Virus record (IMG/VR): IMGVR_UViG_3300042922_000471
Coordinates: 1 to 33,145 of that record
Source of the DNA: a virus
Direction: 5' to 3' (one strand)
Length of the DNA: 33,145 bases
Part shown: piece after piece, positions 15,657 through 20,790 of the stretch
How the letters are laid out: each line of letters opens with the position of its first letter
Position numbering within the stretch: position 1 is the first letter of the stretch
Position numbers and translations under genes: made by a program
The notes under the pieces: generated by a model
What the model saw: the letters and a program-made list of their open reading frames with translations, nothing else
What the model was told of the DNA's origin: nothing
Database searches by the model: none

Positions 15657-15693
15657 ATCAGCTCATGCTCATTATACCATATGAGGAGCTGAT
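15657..15693 (+). promoter_or_regulatory. inverted repeat masking the ribosome site of the ArpU gene
   Basis: ATCAGCTC (15657-15664) is complementary to GAGCTGAT (15686-15693), and the latter includes part of the GAGGAG ribosome site (15683-15688) of the gene that starts at 15698. In RNA this would sequester the site. If transcription starts within the repeat it would instead be a DNA operator. Confidence 0.4.
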
Positions 15694-15697
15694 ACAC

Positions 15698-16141
15698 ATG
15701 GGGGCAGAACCATTGATGGCAGACATCCAGCGAATTGACGAGGAAGCTACAAGAGACGCCGTCGAGAAGTACCTGAAGCAAGCCCGCGAATACATGGTCA
15801 CTGACTATATTCCGGAAGAGGCGAGCGTGACCGCCTCCATAAGCGCCACGCCACGCAGCTACACGGGCCTGACCAGCGATCAGACCGGGAACATAGCCAC
15901 CCGTAACGTAGACGAGCCGGAGCGCCGCAGGCGGCATGTAGACCGTGCGGAGCGGGCAATCAGTAGGCTGGGTTCACGGCAGCAGAAGCTTATCCGGTTT
16001 CGATATATAGATGATGATGACATTCTGGATATCGACGCCGCGCAGGAGCTGGGCTTCAGTGATCGGCACTACCGGCGTATTAAATCGCTGGCAATCTACC
16101 GCCTGGCGGGCATGCTTGGGCTGCTTATTTTGCGCGAATAA
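15698..16141 (+). CDS. ArpU/RinA-like late transcriptional regulator
   Basis: ATG 15698 (147 aa) follows GAGGAG by 9 nt. The C-terminal part is a sigma-region-4-like helix-turn-helix: RAERAISRLGSRQQKLIRFRYIDDDDILDIDAAQELGFSDRHYRRIKSLAIYRLAGMLGLL (about 85-145). The N-terminal half is helical with a middle linker. ArpU and RinA proteins activate late operons of Gram-positive phages. Directly after its stop lie four tandem 11-bp repeats and a promoter, then the structured RNA and the packaging genes, a fitting target. A hairpin covers its own ribosome site. Confidence 0.8.
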   Translation: MGAEPLMADIQRIDEEATRDAVEKYLKQAREYMVTDYIPEEASVTASISATPRSYTGLTSDQTGNIATRNVDEPERRRRHVDRAERAISRLGSRQQKLIRFRYIDDDDILDIDAAQELGFSDRHYRRIKSLAIYRLAGMLGLLILRE

Positions 16142-16147
16142 TCAAAA

Positions 16148-16190
16148 TGTCCGCTTTATGTCCGGTCTATGTCCGCTCTATGGCCGATTC
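16148..16190 (+). repeat. four tandem 11-bp repeats upstream of the late promoter
   Basis: TGTCCG starts at 16148, 16159 and 16170 and TGGCCG at 16181, each exactly 11 bp apart, with the unit TATGTCCGCTC. All lie on one face of the helix and end 15 bp before the TG of the extended -10 at 16205. They begin 7 bp after the arpU stop. This is the layout of activator-binding iterons, and the ArpU-type protein is the obvious candidate ligand. Confidence 0.7.
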
Positions 16191-16204: not shown

Positions 16205-16213
16205 TGTTATATT
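16205..16213 (+). promoter_or_regulatory. candidate late promoter, extended -10
   Basis: TGTTATATT is an extended -10 element lacking a good -35, as expected for an activator-dependent promoter. The four 11-bp repeats end 15 bp upstream. Transcription would begin near 16220 and run into the structured RNA. Confidence 0.5.
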
Positions 16214-16410
16214 GGTAATACGGAAAACAAGGCGAGACACAGTGACAAGTGCCCCGGATGCGTGTAGACGATTAAGTTCCACTTAGTCCAGTGCAGCGGG
16301 GCAATTCACATATAGGCGGTCGCCCAATGGGTTTAACTGGCCCCGCTTATGGGGCGAGTGAGTCCGCCGCAAGAAGCCGTATCGCTCCCGGCTACAGGAG
16401 CAGCATAACT

Positions 16411-16572
16411 GATGTGGTGGCGGAATAGGTAGACGCTAATGGCAGATAGATGGGCTTAGTGGTTAAAATCCACGAGCGGACAATCACGGCGAAATAGCCG
16501 ACTCCGCGACGCCGTAGTTAACCAGGCAGACGAGTAGACCATCATGCAGGGTGCAAATCCTTGCCCACATCG
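16411..16572 (+). ncRNA. tRNA-Leu-like domain with oversized central arm
   Basis: GATGTGG and CCACATC (16411-16417 with 16565-16571) form a perfect 7-bp acceptor stem. Next comes TGGCGGAATAGGTAGACGC, a normal tRNA-Leu-type D arm with the conserved GG. A T arm GCAGGG-TGCAAAT-CCTTGC precedes the acceptor, with TGC where TTC is normal and a 6-bp stem. Between D and T arms, instead of a 17-nt anticodon arm, there are about 109 nt that fold as one long arm: TAATGG/CCATCA, TGGTTAA/TTAACCA (16460-16466 with 16518-16524), GCGGA/TCCGC (16476-16480 with 16503-16507), CGGC/GCCG. An alternative hairpin GTGG-TTAAAAT-CCAC resembles an anticodon arm. No CCA is encoded. It is not a normal tRNA; the layout recalls the tRNA part of tmRNA. 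Confidence 0.6.
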
Positions 16573-16583
16573 AATCTTCATAG

Positions 16584-16629
16584 GGTATGTCGTCAATGTC
16601 CTCCGGGCGTTAGAGCGGCATACCTTTTT
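16584..16629 (+). terminator. intrinsic terminator of the structured RNA
   Basis: GGTATGTCG (16584-16592) pairs with CGGCATACC (16616-16624) over 9 bp, with one G-T pair, and is followed by TTTTT. It lies 12 nt after the tRNA-like domain, giving the RNA a defined 3' end. Late genes downstream would need readthrough or another promoter. Confidence 0.8.
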
Positions 16630-16718: not shown

Positions 16719-16991
16719 ATGTCACAGCAAAAGCCAGACCCTAGTAAAATCATCATCCCTGTAGAAGACGCAGACGGCGAGTTCAGAATGATTCGCCTCA
16801 GTGAAGTCAATGCAATTACTGGTGAAATCGAAGGAGACCCGCAGTCAACTGCTATATTCCATGTAGGCGGCAAGCAGTATAAGAATCTGCATACGGATAA
16901 GGGTGTACAGCAGTTCAACGAATACTGGTTGCTCAACAAGGATAAGCACAAAGGCGATGCGATACCGGGGATCAGAATCGAAGAAGAGTAA
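16719..16991 (+). CDS. small protein, possibly LytTR-like DNA-binding
   Basis: ATG 16719 has AGAGGAG at a good distance. The 90-residue product (IIIPVEDADGEFRMIRLSEVNAITGE, then AIFHVGGKQYKNLHT) has a strand pattern and an isoleucine-pair, acidic turn and LHT ending that recall LytTR DNA-binding domains, though the match is weak. It is the first protein gene after the structured RNA and is in the head-operon direction. A regulator of late genes is one reading; I am not sure of the family. Confidence 0.6.
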   Translation: MSQQKPDPSKIIIPVEDADGEFRMIRLSEVNAITGEIEGDPQSTAIFHVGGKQYKNLHTDKGVQQFNEYWLLNKDKHKGDAIPGIRIEEE

Positions 16992-18449: not shown

Positions 18450-18980
18450 ATGGCGGAAGTCAAGAAGGCAAAACAGAATGTTGGCGAAATGGAGATTTCG
18501 ACGAGCGAATTGGCTGCCATCGTAGGGAAAACCTCCCGTTGGATCCGGCAATTAACCTCTGAAAAGGTCCTGATACAGTCAAAAAAGGGTAAATATCTGC
18601 TTGCAGACGCGGTTCAAGCGTACATTTTGCACGTTTCAGGGGGTGCAAAAGAAGATGGTAAGCCGACATTTACGGACCACAAGACGGAGCATGAGCGAAT
18701 TAAAGCGGAGAAAGCGGCGCTGGAGCTGGCCGAAATGCAGGGAAACATGCATTCTTCGGACGACGTTAAGGCCATTATGGGCGATATAATCATCACCGCA
18801 AAGACGAAATTGCTGGCAATTCCGCAGCGTGTCAGCCTGAAACTGGACAAAGAGCCTTCGACAGTGATCGAAAAGACGCTTACCCGGGAGATTGCCGGAG
18901 CGCTGGCCGGGCTGACAGAGTATTCCCCGTCCCTTTTCTCCGGGAAAGTGGGTGAAGAGGATGGTAGCGAAGAAGACTGA
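18450..18980 (+). CDS. terS: terminase small subunit (Nu1/DUF1441-like)
   Basis: ATG 18450 follows AGGGGGGT. The 176-residue protein has an N-terminal winged helix-turn-helix (about 15-60: ISTSELAAIVGKTSRWIRQLTSEKVLIQ... GKYLLADAVQAYI) and a helical middle part (about 75-110, HKTEHERIKAEKAALELAEMQG) typical of Nu1-type small terminases, then a domain that contacts the large subunit. It binds cos DNA and assists cutting and packaging. It overlaps the large subunit gene by 20 nt. Confidence 0.85.
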   Translation: MAEVKKAKQNVGEMEISTSELAAIVGKTSRWIRQLTSEKVLIQSKKGKYLLADAVQAYILHVSGGAKEDGKPTFTDHKTEHERIKAEKAALELAEMQGNMHSSDDVKAIMGDIIITAKTKLLAIPQRVSLKLDKEPSTVIEKTLTREIAGALAGLTEYSPSLFSGKVGEEDGSEED

Positions 18981-20790
18981 GGCGCTTTTCAAACAAATTT
19001 CCCGTCTTTGGGAGCCCAAGCCTCCAATGACGGTTTCCGAATGGGCAGACGCTTACCGTGTACTCAGTAAAGAGTCAAGTCCCGAGCCAGGGCCTTGGCA
19101 GACGGAGCGGACGCCATATACAAAAGAAATCATGAACTGCATGAATGACCCAGCGGTGGAAGAGGTTGCAATCATGGCCTCAGCTCAGGTGGGTAAATCA
19201 GAAATCCTGCTGAACATCGCAGGATTTTTTGCTGATCAAGAACCGGCTCCGATGATTTACATGCTGCCGGACAAGGGACTAATTAAATCCGTTTCTCAGG
19301 AGCGGATTACACCAATGATCAAAGCGAGCCCGCGGCTTCGGAATGTATTTGCCGCAGCCAAAGGGAGATCAGCAAATAATACCATCGCCAAAAAGAGTTT
19401 TTCGGGTGGGTACCTGCAGTTGGTCGGAGCCAATTCTCCGGCGCAGCTTTCCTCCCGGCCGGTCCGTGTGGTCATGGGCGATGAGGTGGATCGGTTTCCG
19501 GTGTCCTCCGGGACTGAGGGTGATCCAGTCAACCTGCTCAAGATCCGGACAACCAACTTCCATAATCGGAAACACATCTTCGTTTCCACGCCGCTGGTAG
19601 AGGAAACCAGCCGCATTAATCGCTTATACCTGGATAGCACGCAAGAACAATGGTGTTTGCCTTGTCCGTGCTGCGGCGACCTGCAAGCTTTGGACTTCAG
19701 CAATTTGAAATTCACCCGGAATGATGCGGGTGAGGTGAAGAACGTCGAAGGGGCTTGTCGAGCCTGCGGTGCGTTGTCTTCAGAAAAGGCATGGAAGTCA
19801 GGGGCAGGACAGTGGGTGGCAAGACAGGAGCATCCCTTCCGCCGCGGGTTTCACCTGACTCAAATCGTCAGCCCTTGGGTGACTTGGAAGAAGATTGTCT
19901 CTGGATTTTTAGAGGCTGGAAACGATCCGGAAATGCTTCAGGTTTGGGAAAACACCGTCATGGGCAAACCTTGGCGCGTCACCGGCGAGAAGCTGGATGA
20001 GAACGAGCTGATGCAGCGCGGCGAGGAATACGAAGCCGACGTTCCGGACGGCGTGAAGATCCTGACCGCCACAGTGGATACACAGGACAATCGCTTTGAA
20101 ATTGAAGTGAAGGGCTGGGGAGTCGGCCGGGAGTCCTGGGGGATTCGCTATCATATCATTCATGGTGATTTAGAACAGCCAAAGATATGGCAGGAGTTAG
20201 ATGAATACCTGCAGCGGCAATGGAAAGACAAGAACGGCCGTTCCTTCGGCATCGTAGGCGCGTTCGTTGACTCCGGGGGCCACTACACCGGCAGTGTATA
20301 TAAGTTCTGCGCTTCACGGCTGGGTCGCCGCATCTATGCGATCAAAGGTGAAGGTAAAGAGAACGGCGGATACGTTCCACTGTATAACGGATATTCCAAC
20401 AATAACCGGTACAAGGCTACCGTGATTCGCATAGGCGTTGATGAAGGAAAGTATCGGGCATCGAATGACCTGAAGCGCAAACGGCATGGCCCTGGGTACT
20501 GTCACTTTCCGGCCAATACACCCGGACATGACAACCGGGGGTACAACGAGGAGTATTACCTGGGGCTCACTGCGGAGAGTTTGGTTTCCAAGAAACGTAT
20601 GGGCGTGACCTATCAGGTGTGGCAGCCGATTCGAAAGCGGAATGAACCCTTCGACTTGCATGTTTATCAGCTTGCGCTGTTGGAACTGCTTAATCCTAAT
20701 CTGGATTCGCTTGCGCCGGCATCTGGTCAGAACGTGGGAGCCGCGAAAAAGACGAAGCGTAAGCGCGGCACCATTAGTAAAGGCTTGTAG
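18961..20790 (+). CDS. terL: terminase large subunit (lambda gpA family)
   Basis: The 609-residue protein (ATG 18961, or GTG 18952) has Walker A SAQVGKS (74-80), Walker B VVMGDE (170-175), coupling motif VSTP (208-211) and a Cys cluster CLPCPCC...CRAC (232-269) that probably binds zinc. The C-terminal nuclease part shows VDTQDN and FVDSGG acidic motifs. It is the packaging ATPase and cos nuclease. The order TerS-TerL-gpW-portal and the Cys insert are as in lambda gpA-like terminases of Bacillota phages. Confidence 0.92.
   Translation: MVAKKTEALFKQISRLWEPKPPMTVSEWADAYRVLSKESSPEPGPWQTERTPYTKEIMNCMNDPAVEEVAIMASAQVGKSEILLNIAGFFADQEPAPMIYMLPDKGLIKSVSQERITPMIKASPRLRNVFAAAKGRSANNTIAKKSFSGGYLQLVGANSPAQLSSRPVRVVMGDEVDRFPVSSGTEGDPVNLLKIRTTNFHNRKHIFVSTPLVEETSRINRLYLDSTQEQWCLPCPCCGDLQALDFSNLKFTRNDAGEVKNVEGACRACGALSSEKAWKSGAGQWVARQEHPFRRGFHLTQIVSPWVTWKKIVSGFLEAGNDPEMLQVWENTVMGKPWRVTGEKLDENELMQRGEEYEADVPDGVKILTATVDTQDNRFEIEVKGWGVGRESWGIRYHIIHGDLEQPKIWQELDEYLQRQWKDKNGRSFGIVGAFVDSGGHYTGSVYKFCASRLGRRIYAIKGEGKENGGYVPLYNGYSNNNRYKATVIRIGVDEGKYRASNDLKRKRHGPGYCHFPANTPGHDNRGYNEEYYLGLTAESLVSKKRMGVTYQVWQPIRKRNEPFDLHVYQLALLELLNPNLDSLAPASGQNVGAAKKTKRKRGTISKGL

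Follow-up and report, generated by a model that had tools for sequence, protein, structure and literature searches.

The upper half of a tRNA, consisting of acceptor stem, D arm and T arm, serves in a phage RNA described here as a frame for a long structured domain that replaces the anticodon arm. Patterns derived from this RNA revealed at least 293 distinct elements of the same kind in phages and prophages, which we refer to as class I. They apparently constitute a large, undescribed family of viral RNAs: no prior description was found in open-access papers or Rfam, and an earlier account elsewhere is possible. Since neither tRNA finders nor Rfam recognize the elements, they have been taken for empty intergenic sequence, even in laboratory phages of Bacillus subtilis (phi3T, SBSphiJ), Listeria and Enterococcus.

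The RNA was found in a stretch of 33,145 nt from an IMG/VR virus record (the window). The genes for integrase, DnaB-type helicase, sigma factor, ArpU-type activator, terminase and tail sheath characterize its phage as temperate with a contractile tail. The element is located within a gap of 577 nt between the activator gene and a small ORF (16719–16991). All feature coordinates are listed in Table 1. The repeats that follow the activator gene are likely, as predicted from their sequence, to be the binding site of the activator, and the TATATT hexamer is a putative −10 element of a leader promoter. Repeats and −10 region recur behind the orthologous ArpU activator in other phages (the repeats in L002–L010). 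TATAAT-like hexamers are not enriched upstream of the relatives, which lends no support to a general promoter. Another conserved leader structure (ACCGC...GCGGT), possibly another regulatory RNA, follows the promoter in L004–L006 and L009, with or without a tRNA-like RNA.

Table 1. Features of the tRNA-like element and its surroundings (positions refer to the window unless a locus is named).
Feature	Position	Strand	Evidence or remark
ArpU/RinA-type late transcription activator gene	15665–16141	+	PHROG phrog_248, E 5e-27; also phrog_36
Four direct repeats TGTCCG/TGGCCG, 11-bp spacing	16148–16186	+	Sequence
Candidate −10 element TATATT of leader promoter	16208–16213	+	Aligns with GATACAAT/TATATT at the equivalent site in relatives
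Leader hairpin TGCCCCG...CGGGGCA, 5' of the tRNA-like RNA	16250–16303	+	Sequence and MFE fold
Acceptor stem, 5' strand GATGTGG	16411–16417	+	7/7 pairs; covariation in 160 distinct acceptors
D arm GCGGAATAGGTAGACGC	16420–16436	+	Class-I signature; Leu-type
Pseudoknot helix S1, 5' strand ATGGC	16439–16443	+	Pairs with 16511–16515
Cargo-closing helix S2, 5' strand GATGG	16449–16453	+	Pairs with 16539–16543
T-arm mimic hairpin GTGG-TTAAAAT-CCAC	16459–16473	+	100% of cells paired; loops TTCGAAT/TTCAAAT in relatives
Hairpin H5/H6: GCGGA/TCCGC, internal loop, CGGC-GAAATA-GCCG	16476–16507	+	GNARNA hexaloop
Pseudoknot helix S1, 3' strand GCCGT	16511–16515	+	Pairs with 16439–16443
Closing helix S2, 3' strand CCATC, then conserved AT before the T stem	16539–16543	+	
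T arm, 6-bp stem and UGCAAAU loop	16546–16564	+	5–6 pairs in 287/293 class-I elements
Acceptor stem, 3' strand CCACATC	16565–16571	+	7/7 pairs with 16411–16417
Intrinsic-terminator-like hairpin GGTATGTCG...CGGCATACC-TTTTT (T5)	16584–16629	+	Sequence and fold
Terminase small subunit gene	18450–18980	+	PHROG phrog_57/phrog_15 matches for the terminase pair
Terminase large subunit gene	18952–20790		Follows the small subunit; PHROG matches
Second tRNA-frame RNA in L005	L005 3334–3451		Acceptor AAGTGTG, D arm TAGCTCAATAGGGAGAGC, canonical GGGTTCGATTCCC T arm

A preliminary description of the locus had proposed that an acceptor stem of seven perfect pairs is combined with a D arm of the Leu type and, about 109 nt further on, a T arm. 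These parts were borne out, the intervening segment being exactly 109 nt long (16437–16545). The D stem is formed by GCG (16420–16422) and CGC (16434–16436). The T stem (GCAGGG/CCTTGC) has 6 bp rather than 5, so that acceptor and T stem together comprise 13 bp, not 12. The discriminator position (16572) is a G, and CCA is not encoded.

Standard tools do not detect this RNA. ARAGORN, proposed as a check in the preliminary description, made no call on the element in tRNA, intron-containing tRNA, mitochondrial or tmRNA mode and reported no tmRNA tag reading frame in the window. Rfam gave no match, nor did the covariance models for ROOL and GOLLD; permissive E-values over the leader yielded one chance match. 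A blastn search of GenBank phages with the whole leader was empty because cargo (the replaced domain) and acceptor are too variable, and patterns for the D and T arms were needed. The single-sequence fold is modestly better than that of shuffles (z = −2.4). Folding energy alone is weak evidence, and it is the comparative evidence that is decisive for the window element.

The initial scan of IMG/VR required a D arm of the Leu type, followed after 60–120 nt by a T arm, and left D-loop position 17 and T-loop position 55 open. It yielded at least 120 loci, with an acceptor match in 112 of the 123 anchors listed (window included) and almost no tRNA calls. In the genome scan, both positions were fixed. 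Taken together, the two scans separate two classes: class I with A17/G55 and a 6-bp T stem, and class II with U17/U55 and mostly 5 bp. Further scans with strict patterns raised class I to at least 311 unique anchors. The D-arm and T-loop letters are part of the patterns, so their constancy among the matches is partly imposed; the covariation statistics use positions outside the patterns. The window element is a class-I member: it has the 6-bp T stem, the UGCAAAU loop and the AT before the T stem, it lacks an anticodon arm, and its cargo contains a closing helix and a pseudoknot.

The frame is constrained at the level of RNA. Among the at least 311 anchors listed, acceptors pair at 7/7 positions in 249 and at 6/7 in 44, compared with 0.2% and 1.9% at control offsets. 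Pairs 2–6 are canonical in 98.8–100% of 160 distinct acceptors (40–55% when shuffled), with all Watson–Crick types present. D-stem pair 11–24 covaries, being C–G in 309 and U–A in 60 elements. Of the two bases that precede the T stem, the second is U in 155/160 and the first A in 137/160. Acceptor base 1 is free, and the discriminator is not conserved, being A in 84, U in 46, C in 16 and G in 14 of the 160. CCA is encoded in only five of the 293 elements but could be added post-transcriptionally.

Other readings raised in the preliminary description were tRNA decay and an intron or inserted segment within a tRNA. An ordinary tRNA-Leu of this kind would account for the Leu-type D arm, and class I shares with tRNA (RF00005) the 7-bp acceptor stem, the D arm and the T arm. 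However, no anticodon arm (5-bp stem, 7-nt loop) follows the D arm, and tRNA models miss the window element. An anticodon stem at the canonical place occurs in 6/262 elements versus 6.5 in shuffled cargo, not above chance. Cargo length ranges from 26 to 182 nt, with gaps of only 26–28 nt in the smallest relatives, and the acceptor covaries across the 160 sequences. With ARAGORN negative on the window element even when introns were allowed, and making a call in only 5/293 class-I elements, we consider this reading scarcely tenable.

The likeness to the tRNA domain of tmRNA, also pointed out in the preliminary description, holds for the anatomy but not for identity. As in tmRNA (RF00023), the upper half of the tRNA is kept, a domain with pseudoknots takes the place of the anticodon arm, and host tRNA-processing enzymes are the expected maturases; the layout is similar, homology is not shown. 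ARAGORN in tmRNA mode and Rfam were negative on the window element, and only one of 293 class-I elements gave a tmRNA match. No tag frame was reported by ARAGORN in the window, and cargos as short as 26 nt in relatives leave little room for one. Unlike in tmRNA, the class-I acceptor is free, CCA is almost never encoded, the D stem is proper and the cargo is exchanged between phages.

A related alternative is that the RNA acts in translation as a non-decoding tRNA-like or tmRNA-like molecule that either accepts an amino acid or binds to the ribosome, EF-Tu or a synthetase. The Leu-like D arm and the intact elbow are in line with this, as the anticodon matters less to bacterial LeuRS than the body of the tRNA. 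But the discriminator is unconserved, acceptor base 1 is free, CCA is almost never encoded, U55 is replaced by G, and there is neither an anticodon stem nor a tmRNA call. Elsewhere, a stack of 13 bp is a feature of tRNA-Sec and works against EF-Tu binding. A normal translational role is disfavoured because of the loss of U55, the 13-bp stack, the free discriminator and the missing anticodon, and we regard translation-linked function in general as improbable.

Clustering of the class-I middles resulted in 219 distinct cargos. A closing helix scoring at least 12 is found in 100 of the 219 clusters versus 24 when shuffled, and its 3' strand ends about 2 nt before the T stem. A helix crossing it, as in an H-type pseudoknot, reaches a score of 12 in 87/180 versus 64 shuffled, which is a modest but clear excess.

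For the window cargo, an alignment of nine subfamily members was analysed (the window, L212, L217, L025, L057, L198, L211, L210 and L179). L057, L198, L210 and L211, which contain the T-arm mimic, were delimited by hand, since the regular expression settles on the earliest T loop that fits. Across eight helices, 24 pairs are changed on both sides, and the covariation score is 0.58, compared with 0.23 for shuffled controls and 0.11–0.15 for slid partners. The preliminary description had drawn one long arm of four stacked helices. A long structured domain is indeed present, but covariation in the nine relatives supports another layout: one helix closes the domain, a T-arm-like hairpin stands by itself, a further hairpin ends in a GNARNA hexaloop, and a pseudoknot forms through a crossing helix. 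S2, the T-arm mimic, H5 and H6 all covary. In S2, 93% of the cells are paired, with double changes in four of five pairs; such changes affect 4/4 counted pairs of H5 and 3/4 of H6. S1 has 51% of its cells paired and is not column-aligned in every row of the nine. All nine members nevertheless have an S1 candidate of 5–8 bp between the same two regions with differing sequences (ATGGC:GCCGT in the window; ATCAG:CTGAT, ATGCT:AGCGT, ACAGT:ACTGT, GCAAC:GTTGT and ACGAG:CTCGT in others). The hairpin with the TTAAAAT loop, for which a displaced anticodon arm had been suggested, proved instead to be a mutated mimic of a T arm, as seen from the loops of its relatives. Such a mimic is present in 9/276 cargos versus 0.04 in shuffles. 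A search for a free-standing core of the window cargo by covariance model in 12 bacterial genomes revealed no convincing copy; the weak matches resemble tRNA T arms.

The replaced domain behaves as a cassette: one frame is found with unrelated cargos and one cargo in unrelated frames. L242 and L399 have the same acceptor and agree at 0.88 upstream, 0.97 downstream and 1.00 in the T arm, while their cargos (44 and 169 nt) agree at only 0.24. Conversely, the cargos of the window and L212 agree at 0.88 although the acceptors differ and the flanks are no more alike than random sequence (about 0.55), and L237 and L238 have identical cargos with other acceptors and unrelated flanks. The phages SBSphiJ and Grass have frame and flanks in common (0.95 and 0.86) but not the cargo, and that of SBSphiJ is also found in the unrelated temperate phage phi3T (E 8e−16). 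Recombination probably mediates the exchange of cargos, with the conserved sequences of the D arm and T arm on either side as crossover points.

Nearly all of the at least 293 class-I elements belong to phages and prophages of Firmicutes (Bacillus, Paenibacillus, Listeria, Enterococcus, Lactobacillaceae, Clostridia). Among 84,980 species genomes, 77 matches were listed, again nearly all in Firmicutes: Paenibacillus, Bacillus, Listeria, Weissella, Leuconostoc, Levilactobacillus, Clostridia and genomes from the rumen. A looser pattern detected elements in 14/394 genomes of the Paenibacillus family and 25/397 of the Lactobacillus family; the reversed control pattern gave none. Carriers in GenBank include the Lactobacillus plantarum phages Sha1, H1-Guo, 8014-B2 and phiJL-1, as well as phi3T, Grass, SBSphiJ, EFDG1, Listeria phages B025 and B054 and Leuconostoc phage LN34. 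The GenBank annotation at the element is blank in nearly all cases, a few having only a hypothetical-protein call. An attachment-site remnant was set aside as an explanation, with the integrase gene 12 kb away and the element present in lytic SBSphiJ and EFDG1.

Two genomic settings recur, one behind late activators and one among tRNAs. ArpU/RinA-type activators are the commonest of 94 upstream proteins (phrog_36 in 23 and phrog_248 in 20; the sets may overlap), and HNH endonuclease and terminase families are the most frequent downstream neighbours. Intrinsic terminators are found within 250 nt downstream of 77/249 elements (8–13 in shuffles), and a canonical tRNA within 800 nt of 64/259.

The first setting raises the question of a cis-acting late-leader element, which would act on the late mRNA by attenuation, antitermination, cleavage or protection of its 5' end without release of a separate RNA. 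Many members, among them those of the window, Sha1 and H1-Guo, are placed between the ArpU/RinA gene and the HNH/terminase genes, which would suit such a role, as would the terminators (77/249 elements against about 11 expected). On the other hand, the elements of 8014-B2, Grass and EFDG1 are part of tRNA arrays and that of phi3T adjoins yonN/yonO, away from a terminase leader, and cargo swapping is hard to square with a single cis function. Eleven relatives of the activator were examined as well. In one of them (L005), an element with the same frame and a different middle is located directly downstream, and ahead of it stands a further tRNA-like RNA, which is of another type (Table 1). This second RNA has a long middle with its own T-arm mimic and is recognized by Rfam as a tRNA with insertion (41.9 bits). 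The whole two-RNA module is absent from L004 and L006, in which promoter and leader are retained, and is therefore accessory. A purely cis-acting role thus appears unlikely, though of the alternatives to a separate RNA it deserves the most attention. An RNA of the second type is also carried by L159 (6330–6447, minus strand).

The frequent position just upstream of terminase would also fit a packaging or cos-linked nucleic acid element with a role comparable to that of phi29 pRNA. In phiJL-1 (NC_006936; L414 2564–2671), the element stops a few nucleotides before the end of the deposited linear genome. Many members are far from terminase genes, however, and phages with near-identical flanks have wholly different cargos, which makes this role very improbable.

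We favour, at about even chances, a natural tRNA scaffold that is processed by tRNA enzymes and presents an interchangeable effector RNA, likely a decoy or inhibitor in phage–host conflict. The window element would be transcribed at the start of the late transcript from the ArpU-driven promoter, ending near the terminator. RNase P may recognize the elbow and trim the 5' end, and RNase Z or exonucleases may trim the 3' end. We infer this processing because the frame, with its free-sequence acceptor, D arm, 6-bp T arm, 13-bp acceptor–T stack and G55 in the T loop, holds the parts that these enzymes read; the 3' step is only inferred because the discriminator is unconserved and CCA is almost never encoded. 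The product would be a stable RNA of about 161 nt, in which the frame may provide processing, stability or docking and the cargo may bind a host factor. A decoy or inhibitor is the most likely role because the cargo is the fast-changing, horizontally shared part. That cargos are diverse, are exchanged and recur in unrelated phages with the same host points to a conflict with that host; a defence system as the target is a guess. More tentatively, phages of Firmicutes may possess a modular RNA-effector system in which a constant, tRNA-processed frame carries shuffled pseudoknotted RNAs inhibiting host factors, for example defence systems. If this is true, the system would correspond, at the RNA level, to the exchangeable genes for anti-defence proteins, and a scaffold with swappable RNA cargo would be a new principle for the carriage and exchange of RNA effectors by phages. 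Two unrelated Bacillus subtilis phages with one cargo, and a sister phage with another in the same frame, offer a testable system.

An engineered precedent is the tRNA scaffold for RNA expression, in which a structured foreign RNA is inserted in place of the anticodon arm (PMC3753655). There, as proposed for class I, a foreign RNA in a tRNA frame gains processing and stability. Class I, by contrast, is natural and widespread in phages, and has an altered elbow (A17, G55) and the 13-bp acceptor–T stack. The tRNA-like structures of plant RNA viruses likewise combine tRNA mimicry with pseudoknots, but form the 3' ends of RNA genomes, whereas class I is encoded in phage DNA.

Several other structured RNAs are neighbours of class-I elements. 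ROOL and GOLLD are structured RNAs of phages and prophages, of unknown function and often near tRNA islands (PMC12286853). They are much larger (the ROOL model has 574 positions), unrelated in secondary structure and without a tRNA frame. ROOL matches adjoin class-I elements and never overlie them: in L055 (667–1248) ROOL is located immediately 5' of the element, and in L149, L158 and L164 it is in the same tRNA-bearing locus. In L164 (6328–6851, minus strand), overlapping matches to the tmRNA and permuted-tmRNA models occur in a long tRNA array together with ROOL and a class-I element. The Listeria sRNA rliG (RF02415) is also a late-leader RNA. In L087, a class-I element continues directly from its 5' part, which suggests indirectly that class I is transcribed; rliG leader, class-I element and mcrA RNA follow each other in this one phage leader (3553–4013). 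The region downstream of the A118 activator gene, in contrast, contains no class-I element. Class-I elements may help to explain such orphan RNAs (ROOL, rliG, mcrA RNA, DUF3800 RNAs). In L386 (683–825), a DUF3800-VIII RNA (54 bits) and a DUF3800-VII RNA that scores just below the threshold are found directly 3' of a class-I element, all of them ahead of terminase genes. A SAM riboswitch match (45.3 bits, cut-off 44.4) is located about 1.1 kb upstream of the element in L179 (1159–1264).

Class II comprises 28 elements (L018, L050, L105, L129 and others) with U17, a UUCGAAU loop and mostly a 5-bp T stem. Their discriminator is A in 21/28, the acceptor AGTCAGG is common, and one of them is detected by ARAGORN.
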